Source: Halobacteriovoraceae bacterium
GTDB taxonomy: Bacteria > Bdellovibrionota > Bacteriovoracia > Bacteriovoracales > Bacteriovoracaceae
Assembly: GCA_002712005.1 (NCBI GenBank)
Contig: PASP01000005.1
Coordinates: forward strand, 173,708-237,707
DNA length: 64,000 nucleotides
Reading direction: 5' to 3'
The position numbers and the translations under genes were made by a program. Numbering within the stretch: the first letter of the stretch is position 1; every line of letters starts with the position of its first letter. Shown here piece by piece: positions 18,942 through 27,468 of the stretch. The notes under the pieces are model-generated. The model was not told the origin of the DNA. It made no database searches and saw nothing but the letters and a program-made list of their open reading frames with translations.

Positions 18942-21900
18942 CTACGGCTTATTATCTTTTTTGGTAGTTTGTTGCCAATCCATGTCATCTTCAAGAACTT
19001 CAATTGAACCTCTTAAAGTTTTCATAATGCGCTCTAATCTATCTTCTAGTTTCTGCTTATCTTCACGAGATTTCTCTTCCTTGATAACAGCATTTTCCAT
19101 ATTGAATTCGAGCTGATCAATTTTTCTTTTAAGATCAAGAATCTTCTTATCTCTTGTTGAGACTTGAGATTCAGAATCCATTTTTGCCAATTCCAATTGA
19201 CCTTCGAGCTCTTTTTCTCTAGCCTTGATTTGATTAAAGTCCATTCTCACTTTGTGCTGAAGGCGATCAAATTCTTTTTGGAGATTTCGTGCTTTCTCTT
19301 CAGCGTAAAGCCTTTTCTCATCTGAGATTCTAAGCTTATATTTCATTTCATCGACTTCGGAAGTATTTCTCTTCTTTAAAATGCTGACTTCAATCTTTGC
19401 TTCATCTAATTCGGCCCTTAAGCCCAGATTATCTTGTTCTAAAAGCTTCTTATCTTGGTTTAAAAGATTGATTTCATCTAATAGAGATTCTCTTTCTTCC
19501 CTTAATTGTCTAATTGTCGCTTGTAAGCGAACGGCTTCCCCTTCATGAAAGGAAGGAGGAATGCGGTCTTCCTGAGAAGTTATACTTAAGTGTCCTGTAC
19601 TTTCTGAGCGAGATGTTGAACTATGTGAATCCTCATCTGGATAAGCAAGGTCTTGATCAACAGGAGCATGGCTTCGCTCTGAGGTTTCTGATCCTGATCC
19701 CATTAGATCATCAGATAAGAGAGTGGCCGTCACGTCTTCTTCATGTCCAAAGTTTACGTTAACCATACTTTCGGTGGCATCTCCCTCTTCTTCCTGATAG
19801 TCAGGGGTATTGTCCTCTTCTTCAACACTGAAGCCTACTTCAGAATCGAGGGAGTCTTGTGAGTCATCGCTCCCCTCTTTATCTAGATTCTGGGCTTCGT
19901 TTTGATCAGAAACGGGAAAGCTGTCTTCACTATCATCGTCTAGATTGAATTCTTGGTCTTCATCTTCATCTTCTTCGATGCTAAAACCTAAATCATCATC
20001 TTCGTCATCACTTAGATTAGGAGCGCTTGGGGTTTGCGGTCTAAACTCTTGTGTGGAAGACATCTGCTCATCAAGCATTCCTTGAACTTCATCAGTCATA
20101 TCTTTAGACATTAACATCGTGGGATTGGTTACATCACCATCTTCATCGGCTTCTGTGGCAAAGAGATCTTCGGCGAGGTCATCTTCAATTTCTTCTTCGA
20201 TACCTGTGGAGGCATCTGGCGCAGCATCTGGATCAAAACTTGACGTCTGCATGCTTTCCCCAGCAGCTTTTCGAGGGTCAAAAACAGTAGTGGCTTCGAT
20301 TTCTTCATCATCGTCTTCATCGCCAAAACTTAATTCTCCAGCATCAAAACTAGACTCTTCTGTAATAGGGCCTTCATCATCATCATCATCGGCACCAAAC
20401 TCAAGTTCACCTGTCCCCTCAGAAACGGACTCTGCACTAAAATCGAGATCCTCTGAACTTTCCGAATCATCTTCATCTAAACTAAAATCTAAATTTTCAT
20501 CTGCATCATCTATACTTTCATCATGATCAGCACTTAATTGATCAAGATCTAATTCATCATCTTCAGTAGCATCAAAATCAAGTGAATCTTCCCCTTGATC
20601 GAAATTTTCGGACTCATCTTTTGCTTCAATTCCAACTTCTAGTTCACCATCTTCAGAATCATCACTCAAGTCGAAGTCTAACCCCGAATCAAGATCATCA
20701 CTATGTCCAGAAGCTTCACTTTCACTTTCCATTTCAAGATCTAAATCATCATTATCTGAAAAGCTCAATTCTCCCTCAGGTGAATCCTCAGAGATATCTA
20801 GCTCATCATCTAAATCAAGCGAGTCATTTTCATCTTTCATACTTATTTCCTCATGATCTTCACTGGAGAGATCAAGTGTGTCTTCGTTTTCGTCTTCGTC
20901 ACTAAAGTCTATAGCAATATCTTCAGGACTTTCGTTGGCCTCATCGAGATTAAAGTCCCCTGTGTTTTCTTCAAACTCAGAAAGTTCTTCAGGACTTGGC
21001 AGTTCTCTATTTTGAGTGAGTTCATCTAATTCATTTTCTAAATCATCATCCAAATGAACGGTAATTGGTGCAATATGGAGTTCATCTTCACTCATGAAGT
21101 GATTGTGAACGGGCTCTTCAGTAGTCGAAACTTCCTGCTCCCTCTCACGGGGAAAAACATGATCAAACTTAGCTTGAATTCTATCGTTGAGATCACACTT
21201 ATAAGGAGCCTCTGCACCAGATACTCGATGAAGGTCCACCAAGTTCTTGACCACTGTATTTACTTTCAATTCTGATGGATTGAAATTTGAAGAGCTATCT
21301 GTAAGGTCTAAATCAAAGTCATCATCAAAATCGTCATCCCCATCATTGATAGGAATATCCTCAGACTCATCATCAAGATTAATCTCTTCATTATCATTTT
21401 CATCATCGAGGTTGAAGTCCATTTCCCCTTCATCCTCAAGGTCTAAGTCGAGATCGTCTTCAGGAATTTCATCAACCTCATTAATTTCACTTTGTGTAGT
21501 TGTGGCTTCAGGATCTTCAATAGCAGGAATACTCTCTAAAGTAGCTTCATCTCGCATGGCCGTTTCTTCATCCATACCAAATAATTCATTTGAAAGGTCC
21601 TCTATTACCTCTTCTTTATTGATCGGCTTTGCAGTGGCTTTCTCTTTGACTTCTTCTTTTTCAGGAAGCTCAAAATCAAAATTATCTTTGTATTGATCAT
21701 ATACGCCAAGGTCTTCTAAAATTTTTCTCAGTAAGACATAGGTCAGAGGTTTTCGTATATAACCATGGCATGATGTTTTACCCTGCTGATGCTTCTTTAG
21801 TTCTTTGATAGACATCTCTGAACTAATTGCAATCCGAATAACACCATCTTCTTTCTTAGAAATTTTCTTATTGAAGGCCTCAACTTTTTTCTTTTCCCAA

Positions 21901-22064
21901 TCAAAATCAAGAAAAAGAATCATTTCTCGATACTCATCTTGCTCGAGAAGATCTTGCACGACGCCTGCTAAATGCTTGGTCTCACGAACAAGGTTCACCC
22001 CTGCCCCGAGGGTCTCGACCCACTTTTGCAAACTTGAATCTACACTAAAAAAAGCAATATTCAT
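18942..22064 (-). CDS. large protein: degenerate receiver domain, long acidic repeat region, C-terminal coiled coil
   Basis: The preferred start is ATG at 22062-22064 (MNIAFFSVD), giving ~1040 residues; an upstream in-frame ATG at 22124 adds 20 residues unlike a receiver start. Residues 1-~125 look like a response-regulator fold: beta-1 NIAFFSVD, an Asp in ILFLDFDW at the phospho-acceptor strand, Ser-Ser after beta-4 (RIAISSE), and the Lys-Pro pair in GYIRKPL. The first acidic pocket is reduced. Residues ~150-840 are extremely Asp/Glu/Ser/Leu/Phe-rich with irregular DLDLDD/ELSFSD-like units and short TTVFDP/SSFDPD patches. Residues ~845-1020 form a long coiled coil. The layout resembles FrzS/AglZ/RomR-type polarity proteins. 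Function inferred only. Confidence 0.75.
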   Translation of the reverse strand: MNIAFFSVDSSLQKWVETLGAGVNLVRETKHLAGVVQDLLEQDEYREMILFLDFDWEKKKVEAFNKKISKKEDGVIRIAISSEMSIKELKKHQQGKTSCHGYIRKPLTYVLLRKILEDLGVYDQYKDNFDFELPEKEEVKEKATAKPINKEEVIEDLSNELFGMDEETAMRDEATLESIPAIEDPEATTTQSEINEVDEIPEDDLDLDLEDEGEMDFNLDDENDNEEINLDDESEDIPINDGDDDFDDDFDLDLTDSSSNFNPSELKVNTVVKNLVDLHRVSGAEAPYKCDLNDRIQAKFDHVFPREREQEVSTTEEPVHNHFMSEDELHIAPITVHLDDDLENELDELTQNRELPSPEELSEFEENTGDFNLDEANESPEDIAIDFSDEDENEDTLDLSSEDHEEISMKDENDSLDLDDELDISEDSPEGELSFSDNDDLDLEMESESEASGHSDDLDSGLDFDLSDDSEDGELEVGIEAKDESENFDQGEDSLDFDATEDDELDLDQLSADHDESIDDADENLDFSLDEDDSESSEDLDFSAESVSEGTGELEFGADDDDDEGPITEESSFDAGELSFGDEDDDEEIEATTVFDPRKAAGESMQTSSFDPDAAPDASTGIEEEIEDDLAEDLFATEADEDGDVTNPTMLMSKDMTDEVQGMLDEQMSSTQEFRPQTPSAPNLSDDEDDDLGFSIEEDEDEDQEFNLDDDSEDSFPVSDQNEAQNLDKEGSDDSQDSLDSEVGFSVEEEDNTPDYQEEEGDATESMVNVNFGHEEDVTATLLSDDLMGSGSETSERSHAPVDQDLAYPDEDSHSSTSRSESTGHLSITSQEDRIPPSFHEGEAVRLQATIRQLREERESLLDEINLLNQDKKLLEQDNLGLRAELDEAKIEVSILKKRNTSEVDEMKYKLRISDEKRLYAEEKARNLQKEFDRLQHKVRMDFNQIKAREKELEGQLELAKMDSESQVSTRDKKILDLKRKIDQLEFNMENAVIKEEKSREDKQKLEDRLERIMKTLRGSIEVLEDDMDWQQTTKKDNKP

Positions 22065-22255
22065 GCACCGTACCAAGTAAAAATGTGCTATCTCTATGAT
22101 ATCACTACTTTTTGAATGCCCCAAATAGGGAAAATTAGTCGTTAATTCACCAATTACCCATTGATAGTAAGGGGAAGAATAGATTAAAATGTCTTATATA
22201 TAGGTTCTTCTGCCAAAAAAATTAATTGACCAAAGCATACGGAGTTTTCCTCACT

Positions 22256-23362
22256 ATGACGCTTACTAATATATTTTCAAAAACATTACTCTGTACTCTT
22301 GTAACTCTCGTTCTCAATCTCAATACGAGCTATGCTGACGAAATGCTCAATAAAGATTACTATCCGGCTCCTCTTCTTGGACTGGATAACTTCTTTGCCC
22401 ACCATGTGATTGTAGCCGAAAAGTCGACTCATAAACTCTACCTTTATCAAAATAAAGAAGGTTTTCCTGCTCTTATTAAAACTTATCAAATGGCGACAGG
22501 AAAGAAGGCCGGAGATAAACAATATCAAGGAGACCACAGAACTCCTGAAGGTGTTTACTACTTAACTCAATTTCTTACTCACCAAGACCTCATCAATCGC
22601 CATGGTAAACAAGGTGAAATCTACGGAGTCGGAGCCTTTGTTCTTAACTACCCTAATCCTATGGATCACCAAGAAGGAAAAACAGGGGGAGGTATTTGGC
22701 TTCATTCAACTAATGATGAAACAAGAATTGAAAAAGGACTTGATTCAAGAGGCTGTATTGTAACGGCCAACTCTGATCTCATTGATATTAGTCGCTATAT
22801 TGAACTGGAGAGAACTCCAATCGTTGTTGTTCACGAAGTACCTTTCTTATCAAGGGATGCTTGGTTAACTAAGAAGGCCAAAGTAGAAAAAACGATTTCT
22901 CAATGGTTAAACTCTTGGAGAAATGAAGATATCAATGGCTATATTGACACTTACCATAACGACTTTCGTGATCCTAGAAAAGGTAACTTGGCCCAATTTA
23001 AAGCTTATAAGAAAGCTGTGTTTGCAGCCTCGGGTACACCTCAGATCGAACTCTATGATTTATCTCTCCTTCAATCAGGTGAGTATATTATGGCCACTTT
23101 CAAGCAATCCTATAAATCTTCAACTATTGAAGACTTAGGAAGAAAGACTCTCTATCTTAAGCAAGATGGTTTCTATAACTGGAAAATCGTTTCTGAAAAT
23201 TGGTCAAAACATGGTGTGCAAGATATTATCACTGAAGAAAACCATGTGGCCTTCGAACCTTCAAATCGTTTCTTTGAAACTAATAATCCTAAGAAGATTT
23301 TAGGTAAGAGACTTCTAAGTAGCCGCATTGAAGAAACTGAGAGTGAAGAGAAGAGTAATTAA
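22256..23362 (+). CDS. L,D-transpeptidase-fold (YkuD) peptidoglycan enzyme with C-terminal NTF2-like domain
   Basis: Start chosen at ATG 22256 (GGAG at 22241); a TTG 30 bases upstream is in frame. It encodes 368 residues with a signal peptide (to ~27). The YkuD domain (~50-200) has the catalytic set GGIWLHSTN with His150 and SRGC with Cys167. Residues ~205-325 match an NTF2-like/Cif fold (QWLNSWRNEDINGYIDTY, then WKIVSENW). YkuD plus NTF2 is the layout of Helicobacter Csd6 and Bdellovibrio Bd1075, L,D-carboxypeptidases that set cell curvature. True L,D-transpeptidase activity is the alternative. It is followed 33 bases later by a membrane coiled-coil gene and a bactofilin. Confidence 0.88.
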   Translation: MTLTNIFSKTLLCTLVTLVLNLNTSYADEMLNKDYYPAPLLGLDNFFAHHVIVAEKSTHKLYLYQNKEGFPALIKTYQMATGKKAGDKQYQGDHRTPEGVYYLTQFLTHQDLINRHGKQGEIYGVGAFVLNYPNPMDHQEGKTGGGIWLHSTNDETRIEKGLDSRGCIVTANSDLIDISRYIELERTPIVVVHEVPFLSRDAWLTKKAKVEKTISQWLNSWRNEDINGYIDTYHNDFRDPRKGNLAQFKAYKKAVFAASGTPQIELYDLSLLQSGEYIMATFKQSYKSSTIEDLGRKTLYLKQDGFYNWKIVSENWSKHGVQDIITEENHVAFEPSNRFFETNNPKKILGKRLLSSRIEETESEEKSN

Positions 23363-23395
23363 TCTCTCTTCCCTTCCCTGCAATCCTAGAAAGAA

Positions 23396-24127
23396 ATGGC
23401 TTCAATGATGAAAGCAACTGACTCAAAGAAAATATCTTTTGTATTATATGAAGACGAGATTTCACCTCGTTTTTATGAAATCAATAAGAACTTTGCCAAA
23501 CTCATTCTCTTTGGCCTACCTACCCTAACTCTCATTGTAATCCTTTTGTTAACTGGTGTTGGAGTTTATTTTAAACAAATCCAAACAATGGCCGAGAGGA
23601 AAGAGCCAAAGATCATCAAAGAACTTAAAGCAGAAAAGAGAGAGCTCATTATTCAAAATGAGCAAATGAGTCTTGAAAGAGATCGTCTTAAAAATAAATT
23701 AGCGAAAGGTGTAGAAAACCCAACGGGTCTAGGATTCTTGGCCCTTTTCAAACAAAGTGCGGGTCGACAAGACTTAACAGTTTCTCCTGAAATGAATCTT
23801 GAAGAGGTAGAAGTCAATTCGAGTGACACTGAAATTGATATCAACTTCAAGATTATTAATCGTACTAAAGATAATAGCCGACTTACAGGTTATCTCTATA
23901 TTATTATGCAAGTTGGTCAATATATTGAAGTATGGCCTGTTAACTCATTTGATGACCAAACTATGGCCCTGTCTTACGCCAAGGGCGAGTATTTTGCGAC
24001 ATCAAGATTTCGTCCAGTCAAGGCCACCTTCAAGAAAATTAGACAAGGTCAGGCCCTCTTTAAAATTATTGTTTTCAGTAGAACGGGAGACCTAATCTTT
24101 AAACAATTAATCTCAAGGCCAGTTTAA
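23396..24127 (+). CDS. single-pass membrane protein with short coiled coil, in bactofilin operon
   Basis: 243 residues (a second ATG at 23408 is possible). There is a short cytoplasmic N terminus of ~35 residues, a transmembrane helix about 36-57 (ILFGLPTLTLIVILLLTGVG), a coiled-coil stem about 60-103, and a globular periplasmic domain about 125-243 of beta-rich appearance. I do not recognise the family. Its place between a YkuD/NTF2 wall enzyme and a bactofilin, with a 2-base gap to the bactofilin, suggests a transmembrane adaptor connecting the cytoplasmic polymer to the wall enzyme, as Csd7 does in Helicobacter. No similarity to Csd7 is claimed. Confidence 0.75.
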   Translation: MASMMKATDSKKISFVLYEDEISPRFYEINKNFAKLILFGLPTLTLIVILLLTGVGVYFKQIQTMAERKEPKIIKELKAEKRELIIQNEQMSLERDRLKNKLAKGVENPTGLGFLALFKQSAGRQDLTVSPEMNLEEVEVNSSDTEIDINFKIINRTKDNSRLTGYLYIIMQVGQYIEVWPVNSFDDQTMALSYAKGEYFATSRFRPVKATFKKIRQGQALFKIIVFSRTGDLIFKQLISRPV

Positions 24128-24129
24128 TC

Positions 24130-24492
24130 ATGAGTGAATTATTTAAATTAGAGTCCCAAACTCATACGTATATCGGCGAAAAAAGCTCAATCTCTGGTGA
24201 ATTTAACTTTCAAGGACATACCCTTATCGCTGGAGAAATTGAAGGTGAAGTTCGCATGAGTAATGAATCACCCCTAGTCATAGAATCTACGGGAAGAATA
24301 AAGGGTATCATTCGCTGCCATCATATAAAAGTCTATGGAGCGGTCGAGGGTCAAATTGAAGCTACGGGAAAAATCACCTTCTTCCCCTCTTCAAGCTTCT
24401 CCGGGGTTATCGAAGCCTCTGATTTAAAAATTTTACCAGGCAGTAAAATCAATATGGAAGCAAGAACCGATGTCCAAAACTTGCCTTCGTAA
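24130..24492 (+). CDS. bactofilin (polymer-forming cytoskeletal protein)
   Basis: 120 residues matching the bactofilin (DUF583) right-handed beta-helix. A short N-terminal tail is followed by hydrophobic/Gly-periodic rungs (TYIGEKSSISGEFNFQGH, LIAGEIEGEV, GRIKGIIRCHHIKVYGAVEG) at residues ~15-112. Bactofilins polymerise without nucleotide and scaffold wall-editing enzymes. Start at ATG 24130, two bases after the previous stop. This is a short, minimal bactofilin lacking long flanking tails. Confidence 0.93.
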   Translation: MSELFKLESQTHTYIGEKSSISGEFNFQGHTLIAGEIEGEVRMSNESPLVIESTGRIKGIIRCHHIKVYGAVEGQIEATGKITFFPSSSFSGVIEASDLKILPGSKINMEARTDVQNLPS

Positions 24493-24534
24493 TTTAATCT
24501 AAATCTCTCTAAAGAATAAAATGAATACAAATAA

Positions 24535-24562
24535 AAAGAAGGCCTCGATGGGCCCTCTCTTT
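24535..24562. terminator. imperfect hairpin between convergent bactofilin and M16 genes
   Basis: AGAAGGCC (24537-24544), 6-base loop, GGCCCTCT with one mismatch, flanked by A-rich left and T-containing right sequence. A plausible bidirectional terminator for the bactofilin operon and the M16 operon converging on it. Confidence 0.5.
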
Positions 24563-24609
24563 AATTAAACTTTAATTTGTAGCGACTCTCCCAACGACTT
24601 AGGAGATCT

Positions 24610-26007
24610 TTACAGGTAGTGCTTATACGATCTCACCTTAACGGTACCAAACTCTTCCATACTCTTTTTAGATTTAGCTGGTGCCAAAATAAGAATATCT
24701 TGCTTATTCCAATCAAATGTATTTTTCATTTCATCGACCAAATCTTTTTCAGTGAAAGAGCGAATTTTTTCGGGGTATTGAGTGAGGGTTGAATATTCTT
24801 TGCCTAGATGATCAAGTTGCATCAACTGTGCGAGAAGTGCACGGGAGCTTTCAAATGCAAAGGGATAACCACCCGCTAGAGAGCCTTTTGTTAATTTAAA
24901 ACCACGTTCATCAATCTTTCCCGAAGTGGCCTTCTCAAGAGTTTCCTTTGTTTTAGTAAGGAGCTTATTGAGAGTGTCGATATTTGTTGAGGTGTAAATC
25001 CCTGAACGACCATAGTGTTTTTGCATACCAGCGAATGCACCAACAGAATAAGTGAGACCATTTTCAACTCTTAGTACATTCATAAGTTGAGAAGTAAATC
25101 CTCCACCTAAGTAGTTACTTGCTAGTTTTTTTATTTCAGTTGAATCGTTTTCTTTTCCCTCTAATGTCTTTCCTATCCTGACCTGAGCTTGATTGGCCGA
25201 TTCTAGTGTGACGAGAGTTAAATGAGGTCCTTTCTTGATTCCACTATAGTCAAATTCTACATTTCTAACAAACTGTCCGGTCCCTTTCCAGCCACAGTCT
25301 CTCATAATAATGTCTTTGATATTAAGAATTTCCTTAGGTCCAGTCAGATAAATTCTCTTTTTTACTTTTTCATTTAAGTAATTAAGCTTGGCCTTTAAAA
25401 TTTTAGAATCCCATCTCTTAATATCTCTTATCTTTCCTCCCACAGGGTAAGAAAAAGGAGTGCCTTCAAGACTAATTTCTCTAAATGCTCTTGAAGCTAA
25501 AAAACCGGGGTTTTGAGCACTATTTTCAAGAGAGGAGATGATTCTCTTCTTCTCTTTCTTCAATTCTGTTCGTGGAAAAGTAGCATCTTGGAATAGATGA
25601 CATACCTTTTTTACTGTAGGGATAATATCTTTAACAAGACCTGAAACAGCATAACTTGAATATTCATGAGTGACTTCTGATCCCATAGATACGCCGAAGA
25701 ATTCAATATTATCTGCAATCTCTTTACGAGAAAAACGACGAGTTCCTAAATTGAGATAATCAAGGGAAGCTTCGATGCTTCCTTTAATTTCGCCATCTCC
25801 AAGAGCGCCGTCAGCAAAGTAAACTCCGAGAGCGTATGTGGGAAAACGATTATCCTCAATATAGATAACATCGAGGTTCTCCCATTTTAATTTTTGAACC
25901 TTATCTGAAAAATAGTCATTAGCCTGAATAGAGGCCGTCCCTAAAATGCTAATGCTCAGACCAATTGTTTTTAATTTCTTATATAAATTTTTATTTAGAA
26001 TGTTCAT
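24610..26007 (-). CDS. M16-family peptidase homologue without catalytic HxxEH (secreted)
   Basis: 465 residues with a signal peptide (LKTIGLSISILGTASIQA). The M16 fold is recognisable in the C-terminal half (ANQAQVRIGKTLEG, then YLGGGFTSQLMNVLRVENGLTYSVGA), but the N-terminal helix that should carry HxxEH instead reads SIEASLDYLNLGTRR, with no zinc ligands. Such inactive members pair with an active M16 protein, as in mitochondrial processing peptidase and the bacterial PqqL-type pairs. It starts 15 bases downstream of the active paralogue. Confidence 0.88.
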   Translation of the reverse strand: MNILNKNLYKKLKTIGLSISILGTASIQANDYFSDKVQKLKWENLDVIYIEDNRFPTYALGVYFADGALGDGEIKGSIEASLDYLNLGTRRFSRKEIADNIEFFGVSMGSEVTHEYSSYAVSGLVKDIIPTVKKVCHLFQDATFPRTELKKEKKRIISSLENSAQNPGFLASRAFREISLEGTPFSYPVGGKIRDIKRWDSKILKAKLNYLNEKVKKRIYLTGPKEILNIKDIIMRDCGWKGTGQFVRNVEFDYSGIKKGPHLTLVTLESANQAQVRIGKTLEGKENDSTEIKKLASNYLGGGFTSQLMNVLRVENGLTYSVGAFAGMQKHYGRSGIYTSTNIDTLNKLLTKTKETLEKATSGKIDERGFKLTKGSLAGGYPFAFESSRALLAQLMQLDHLGKEYSTLTQYPEKIRSFTEKDLVDEMKNTFDWNKQDILILAPAKSKKSMEEFGTVKVRSYKHYL

Positions 26008-26022
26008 GTGTCTTCCTTTTTA

Positions 26023-27468
26023 TTAATGTTTGGCCCAAACAGAAGTCATAATATACTTATCGCTACTAAAGAGTTCCTTACAAGCAGACTTAACTTCATC
26101 TACTGTAATCGCTTGATAAATATCGAGTTCTTTCTTGTAGTAAGCATAGTCATTAAAGAAGTTTTCTCTCAGACCAAGGAAGTGAGCGATTCCATTATTG
26201 GAGTCCAATCCACCTACAAAGCTTACTAAGTATTGGTTCTTCGTTTTTTGTAGAGTTCGAGCATCAATGGCCGTATCGCATGACTTTTTAAGATCTTTTA
26301 TCAGCTGATTTTTAAACCAATAAATGCCTTTCTTTGGAAGCAGCTCCCCTTCTATATAGAAAACACCGCTATATTTTAAAGTGTAATTTCCGGCTGACAC
26401 ACTGGAAAGAATCGGTCTTCTATTGGAAACGTATTTCTCATTTAGAAAGCTACTTTCTCCACTACCCAAGATTGAACTGAGCATATCCAGCACATAACCT
26501 TTATGATCACCCATGGCCACAGATGGATAAGAAAGCATAAAAAGAGGATTCTTTGAGTTTCCTTTAATCTTTATATGCCTTTGATATTTTGCACGATGCT
26601 TATAAAGTTCAGGATTATCTCTAGATTTTCTGTATTTTTGAATCTCTTTAGAGCTTGCATTCATATCACCATATTTATCTACAACCATGTCATAGACTTC
26701 ATCGGCTTCCACATCACCTGCAACAACAATGGTAGCATTATCAGGAGTGTAAAACTTTTTAAAATAATCTCTAACGTGTTCACGTGACAATGACTTTAGA
26801 TCTTCCACTGAACCGATAACACTTCCTCCATAGGGAGTTCCTTCAAACATCGCTTGCATCATCGCAAGGTAGAGCTTCCCGCCTGGACGGTTTTCATAGC
26901 GCATCTTACGTTCTTCCAATACGACATTTCTTTCTTTTTCAAAGGCTTCAGGAACAAGGGCCAGATTGGCCATACGATCCGCTTCAATATCAATAACCTT
27001 TTCCACCATATCCTGACTTTCGCTTACGATCGGTAAATCTTCATAGTAAACGGTATTATCAAAGTTAGTGTAAGCATTGGTTCGCCCACCATTACCTTCA
27101 ATGAGGAAATTGAATTGACCTGGACCATATTTCTTAGCCCCTTTGAACATTAAGTGCTCGAGAAAATGGGTAGCCCCCGTTGTCCCCTTTCCTTCATGTC
27201 GTCCCCCTACATCAAAGAATGTGTAGTAACTAAAGATTGGGAGTTTATGATTTTCATAAACTAAGAGTTTTAATCCATTGGGTAAGGTATATTTTTTGAC
27301 TTCTAAATGAACCATACCATTGGATTCTTGTTTCAGCTTTTCCGACTGAGGCTGAGTTCCCTCAGAATTATGCGAACAATTTACGAGGAGTGAAGAAATT
27401 AAAAAAGGAGCGACTTGAGCTGTCCTTTTAATTTTTTGATTTAGTAACTTATAAATGAAATTTCTCAT
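26023..27468 (-). CDS. M16-family zinc peptidase, probable lipoprotein
   Basis: 481 residues. The N terminus has a hydrophobic stretch ending LLVNC (Cys31), a slightly atypical lipobox. The zinc site is intact: HFLEH (101-105) and the downstream glutamate in VVLEERKMRYENRP, followed by the M16 NAYTNFDNTVYYEDLP segment. It would degrade peptides in the periplasm or on the envelope, probably as a heterodimer with the inactive partner encoded next. It is divergent from ald across a 354-base gap. Confidence 0.9.
   Translation of the reverse strand: MRNFIYKLLNQKIKRTAQVAPFLISSLLVNCSHNSEGTQPQSEKLKQESNGMVHLEVKKYTLPNGLKLLVYENHKLPIFSYYTFFDVGGRHEGKGTTGATHFLEHLMFKGAKKYGPGQFNFLIEGNGGRTNAYTNFDNTVYYEDLPIVSESQDMVEKVIDIEADRMANLALVPEAFEKERNVVLEERKMRYENRPGGKLYLAMMQAMFEGTPYGGSVIGSVEDLKSLSREHVRDYFKKFYTPDNATIVVAGDVEADEVYDMVVDKYGDMNASSKEIQKYRKSRDNPELYKHRAKYQRHIKIKGNSKNPLFMLSYPSVAMGDHKGYVLDMLSSILGSGESSFLNEKYVSNRRPILSSVSAGNYTLKYSGVFYIEGELLPKKGIYWFKNQLIKDLKKSCDTAIDARTLQKTKNQYLVSFVGGLDSNNGIAHFLGLRENFFNDYAYYKKELDIYQAITVDEVKSACKELFSSDKYIMTSVWAKH

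Follow-up and report, generated by a model that had tools for sequence, protein, structure and literature searches.

Three adjacent genes in the window, the 64,000-nucleotide stretch of a Halobacteriovoraceae contig (PASP01000005.1) analysed here, form a real and conserved module that varies the known theme of a bactofilin, a bitopic membrane protein and a wall enzyme. The genes, called Y, M and B from first to last (Table 1), encode a predicted secreted YkuD+NTF2 protein, a membrane-spanning protein of no known family and a minimal bactofilin. The module is not described in the literature searched. We infer that it is likely to have a role in cell shape, and we propose that it is a bactofilin-guided wall-editing module, in which a filament of B, bound by M, positions Y; we regard this model as a whole as evenly poised.

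All three genes lie on the + strand with intergenic gaps of 33 and 2 bases, as the first-pass annotation had read them, and, judged from this spacing alone, they would be transcribed as one operon. A promoter-like site and a terminator-like hairpin flank them, and no RNA families were found in the region. Two M16 (insulinase-like) peptidase genes (window 24610-27468, - strand) are convergent with the operon, and many relatives throughout the phylum also keep them beside M-B.

Table 1. Features of the Y-M-B locus, in window coordinates.
Feature	Position	Strand	Basis or remark
Promoter-like site, TTGATA-18-TAAAAT	22161..22190	+	Upstream of Y; consensus match alone, many expected by chance
Y, 368 aa, predicted secreted YkuD+NTF2 protein of Bd1075/Csd6/Pgp2 type	22256..23362	+	Pfam, PDB match, AlphaFold2
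Catalytic His150 (22703-22705) to Cys167 (22754-22756) of Y	22703..22756	+	Alignment
NTF2-like domain of Y, residues 210-315	22883..23200	+	Pfam Cds6_C
Trp316 of Y	23201..23203	+	Counterpart of Bd1075 W303 by alignment
C-terminal motif FxPSxRFF of Y, residues 333-340	23252..23275	+	Past the end of Bd1075
M, 243 aa, bitopic membrane protein of no known family	23396..24127	+	Pfam/NCBIfam negative, AlphaFold2
Cytoplasmic beta-hairpin of M, residues 12-30	23429..23485	+	AlphaFold2 strands 12-19 and 22-30; proposed bactofilin-binding element
Transmembrane helix of M, residues 31-68	23486..23599	+	AlphaFold2; one long helix directly continuing the hairpin
Coiled coil of M, residues 72-103	23609..23704	+	AlphaFold2, second helix
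Periplasmic Ig/FnIII-like beta domain of M, residues 133-242	23792..24121	+	AlphaFold2 and Foldseek
B, minimal bactofilin, 120 aa	24130..24492	+	Pfam Bactofilin E 1.5e-20; PDB 6ria E 2.5e-6
Terminator-like hairpin	24532..24563	.	Between B and the convergent M16 gene

The first gene had been taken for a YkuD/NTF2 enzyme, and Pfam bears this out, with a YkuD domain (E 1.3e-17) followed by a Cds6_C NTF2 domain (E 2.4e-19). Among solved structures the nearest is Bd1075 (PDB 7o21, E 2.5e-41) from Bdellovibrio bacteriovorus, a predatory relative of Bacteriovorax-type bacteria, with Csd6 of Helicobacter and Pgp2 of Campylobacter (PDB 4xzz and 6xj6), which have the same layout, behind it; 7o21 is also the best fold match to the AlphaFold2 model of Y (TM 0.89 by target length). 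All catalytic residues are present. The pair named at the outset, His150 in a G-W-H motif and Cys167 in an S-R-G-C motif, aligns with H141 and C156 of Bd1075 and is invariant in 27/27 operon relatives. Y may further share a secretion signal with Bd1075, its N-terminus being signal-like on reading the sequence and containing a predicted helix at residues 10-22, and it has a counterpart of Trp303. This residue, Trp316 in Y, is invariant in the 27-relative alignment, whereas the C-termini of Csd6 and Pgp2 are shorter and lack the Trp; in Bd1075, W303 was reported to be special to Bdellovibrio homologues and required for convex-face targeting (PMC8938487). From its sequence Y is predicted to be an L,D-carboxypeptidase that would convert tetrapeptides to tripeptides. 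Unlike Bd1075, it carries an additional conserved motif, FxPSxRFF, which is found in 43/45 operon copies and is modelled at a pLDDT of 72-81 after a disordered linker. We rejected this motif as a marker of operon-linked enzymes, as an unlinked copy in another family also has it, and for the same reason, together with the moderate confidence of the model, the tail is only a candidate docking site.

The AlphaFold2 model of M, built on an alignment of 27 relatives (mean pLDDT 82), agrees with the single transmembrane segment, coil and periplasmic domain that had been read from the sequence, and adds a cytoplasmic beta-hairpin. The hairpin region is conserved (K-LSF-LYE...PRYYEI), a disordered linker separates the coil from the beta-sandwich, and most of the invariant residues (G165, P181, G197, E198, R206 and G231) are in the beta domain. 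No Pfam or NCBIfam family was assigned to M or to ten diverged homologues, and sequence searches of Pfam, NCBIfam and the PDB with M and diverged homologues gave chance matches only. Foldseek returned generic Ig/FnIII-like folds and no informative relative, and the periplasmic domain is therefore most likely a binding domain rather than an enzyme. We also considered DUF6776, which we take to be a gammaproteobacterial family lying near bactofilins. It never matched M, and the searched literature holds no paper joining DUF6776 and bactofilin.

The best functional parallel for M, by analogy of layout, is LmdC of Hyphomonas and Rhodospirillum. LmdC is encoded beside a bactofilin; its cytoplasmic beta-hairpin binds BacA, and after the hairpin come a transmembrane segment, a coiled coil and finally the M23 endopeptidase domain (PMC10945521). 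M shares with the LmdC-BacA system the position of its gene beside a bactofilin gene, the hairpin, the membrane segment and the coil. However, where LmdC ends in a peptidase, M has an Ig-like beta domain, most likely non-catalytic, with no Pfam match to M23, and the enzyme of the present system has its own gene and belongs to a different class. Thus M resembles LmdC in its layout without belonging to the LmdC-type M23 peptidases. In a profile comparison between M and LmdC-like M23 proteins of the phylum, the hairpin, membrane segment and coil aligned in register (E 5e-6), although the score came mainly from the coil, with the hairpin adding about 7 bits (40 shuffles). Common descent of the two hairpins could not be shown by this comparison.

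This genome itself encodes an LmdC-like M23 peptidase, P0004 (G000:C14:11731-12882, L126), which is not beside a bactofilin here. It could be another client of the bactofilin, which weakens the suggestion of the first-pass annotation that a complete shape-determining system lies in one operon. Taken further, the main client of M and B would be a different wall enzyme or scaffold, either this peptidase or the acidic protein encoded next to the operon, with Y secondary. P0004 itself has a hairpin-like N-terminus on the cytoplasmic side, a membrane segment and a coil, and proteins of its type occur in 59/59 phylum genomes searched; however, they are equally present in genomes without M and B, so their distribution does not follow that of the module. 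The second candidate, a very acidic protein (1060 aa, window 18942-22124, - strand), has a coiled-coil C-terminus and no Pfam family. That C-terminus is encoded near M-B at 23/26 named family loci and at 33/40 loci outside the family, with the N-terminal part detected in the family alone, but the gene is divergent from the operon and transcribed away from it. The acidic protein may act together with the module, or else in cell polarity. We judge it improbable that either protein is the main client.

The third gene was confirmed as a minimal bactofilin, matching Pfam Bactofilin with 73.7 bits (curated cut-off 27.9) over residues 13-108 of 120, with short flanks. Many bactofilins have an N-terminal membrane-targeting peptide of the MFSKQAKS type (pattern from PMC12448750). 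By inspection the F2/K4/K7 pattern appears to be absent from the N-termini of the operon bactofilins, e.g., MSELFKLESQ, which would fit a B filament that relies on M for contact with the membrane. The genome has a second bactofilin (G000:C11:116321-116608, L001), located between parB and ATP-synthase genes, and a parB-bactofilin linkage has been reported for Bd3904 of Bdellovibrio (PMC7186360). The parB-linked bactofilin occurs in the same genomes as B but is a separate gene and, by its position, not the partner of M; it is absent from four of the sampled genomes, all belonging to a single genus of the family.

Evidence for a functional unit comes from the way in which the three genes are kept and lost together. 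Loci with M numbered 30 (the window and 29 relatives), and in all 29 that have sequence upstream of M the order Y-M-B is found on one strand. The same order was present in 26/26 named public-genome loci (titled Bacteriovoracaceae, Halobacteriovorax, Bacteriovorax and similar), several of which are of the same species as members of the 29-locus set. In a sample of 291 genomes of the phylum, 90 genomes of the family have M and seven do not. In 87 of the 90, M is immediately preceded by Y on the same strand; in two of the exceptions Y and M are on different contigs, and in the third, a genome 82% complete, Y was not found. Y is absent from 7/7 of the genomes without M, as is the operon bactofilin. 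Four of these, members of a single genus with completeness reaching 99%, lack bactofilins altogether, and the other three have one each, the parB-linked one, whereas five M-bearing genomes searched alongside each had two bactofilins as well as Y. Because completeness is only 85-88% for some of the seven assemblies, missing sequence may explain part of the joint loss, but it cannot account for the four-genome genus. This joint keeping and loss suggests that the filament would use the linker to place the enzyme and bend the cell.

Synteny over about 90 genomes together with joint loss excludes chance adjacency of the three genes. A related explanation, that neighbours without a functional link were kept together by slow genome rearrangement, draws on the wide conservation of the surrounding block (acidic protein, M16 peptidases and alanine dehydrogenase), and part of the Y-M-B synteny could indeed be passive. 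We nevertheless find this very improbable as a full account, since Y appears to have entered the block after M and B were established and then stayed beside M, and since Y, M and B vanish together while the par bactofilin is kept in three genomes.

Beyond the family the picture is different. Scanning contigs with the single M protein gave no match and a 29-row alignment was too diverse, but a 10-row alignment worked; by profile search M homologues were found in 150/291 genomes of the phylum. Outside the family a bactofilin is downstream of M in 39/40 loci, the sole exception (L204:3843-4622) having an M16 gene instead. Across the phylum M therefore almost always adjoins a bactofilin, the opposite of the two never being neighbours. 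Of the outside genomes with M, 17 were checked, and in these M and the best YkuD+NTF2 gene were on separate contigs. A genome from another family encodes a YkuD protein, seemingly without an NTF2 domain, directly before M-B (L099:2-1651), which is possibly a second, independent pairing. Thirteen outside genomes had no M match. Eleven of these have a single bactofilin, with parB upstream in ten and the remaining locus ending before that point; the other two have a second bactofilin with a diverged transmembrane protein of M-like layout directly upstream, too distant for the first M profile. In a tree, the operon Y proteins form a group that also takes in a single unlinked copy and stands apart from the majority of the phylum's other enzymes (support 93/99, with long branches that make details unsure), and another family has unlinked Y-type proteins with the FxPSxRFF tail. 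Most simply, the M+B pair is ancestral in Bdellovibrionota, or at least old there, and was joined by Y in the Bacteriovoracaceae-type family, with stray copies elsewhere. The three-gene operon is on this evidence an older two-gene unit to which Y was added in this family only, which does not support calling it a complete shape system, and M, being mostly without an adjoining Y, has work that does not require Y in its operon.

These observations bring forward another reading, in which M and B are the working unit, as a membrane-tethered bactofilin that serves some other envelope process or acts as a stiffener, and Y is merely co-expressed, both affecting shape without touching, like Csd6 and CcmA. 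Nearly all loci outside the family have M+B without an adjoining Y. In Helicobacter, interaction of Csd6 with CcmA, Csd5 or Csd7 has not been seen. In Bdellovibrio, bd1075 is monocistronic (PMC8938487), and genome G104, which encodes Bd1075 at 100% identity, has a single bactofilin and no M; unlike the genomes with the operon, Bdellovibrio lacks M and a second bactofilin, yet it is curved. An enzyme of this class can thus set curvature without M and B, acting alone without the bridge. Against this stands the near-perfect adjacency and joint loss of Y in the family, which exceed the usual pattern of genes sharing a pathway. We consider this reading unlikely, though by no means negligible. The parallel with Csd6 and Bd1075 drawn in the first-pass annotation accordingly stands for the enzyme layout but not for the bridge. 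Csd5 and Csd7 are, as M most likely is, non-enzymatic transmembrane proteins; they bind bactofilin, Csd5 through its cytoplasmic N-terminus, whereas for M binding is presumed. Csd5 also has a peptidoglycan-binding SH3 domain, of which there was no match in M in Pfam or among the Foldseek matches listed. M itself matched no named family.

In the model that we favour, a positioned wall-editing enzyme, B would polymerise on the cytoplasmic side of the inner membrane, as expected from its family, and the predicted N-terminal hairpin of M would bind the filament as in LmdC. The predicted helix would cross the membrane, the coil would probably dimerise M, and the Ig-like domain could hold or orient Y near one stretch of wall, with contact through the NTF2 domain or the FxPSxRFF tail of Y. 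By homology with Bd1075, Y would remove the terminal D-Ala from stem peptides, and this local change to the wall would set cell curvature or shape. By analogy M is likely to be the bridge between B and Y; the contact between Y and M is the weakest step, given that Bdellovibrio, with Bd1075, is curved with a single bactofilin and no M. In evolutionary terms, the old M+B unit would be a bactofilin-adaptor pair of Bdellovibrionota, in front of which the Y gene was later fixed in the Bacteriovoracaceae-type lineage. A broader proposal is that M is the founding member of a family of non-catalytic bactofilin adaptors that spans the phylum. In this lineage the adaptor would link the bactofilin in the cytoplasm with a soluble L,D-carboxypeptidase in the periplasm and give the enzyme a positional cue for one side of the cell, as a two-piece counterpart of the one-piece LmdC; we hold this tentatively, with a little less than even confidence.

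Banks et al. (2022; PMC8938487) state that Bd1075 requires its NTF2 domain for targeting to one side wall, and that the way in which a protein is directed to a single lateral wall has no known mechanistic basis. The Y-M-B module is a compact and testable candidate for the way in which a cytoplasmic filament could steer a periplasmic wall enzyme, and M adds an uncharacterised protein family that is present in about half of the sampled Bdellovibrionota genomes, almost always beside a bactofilin.
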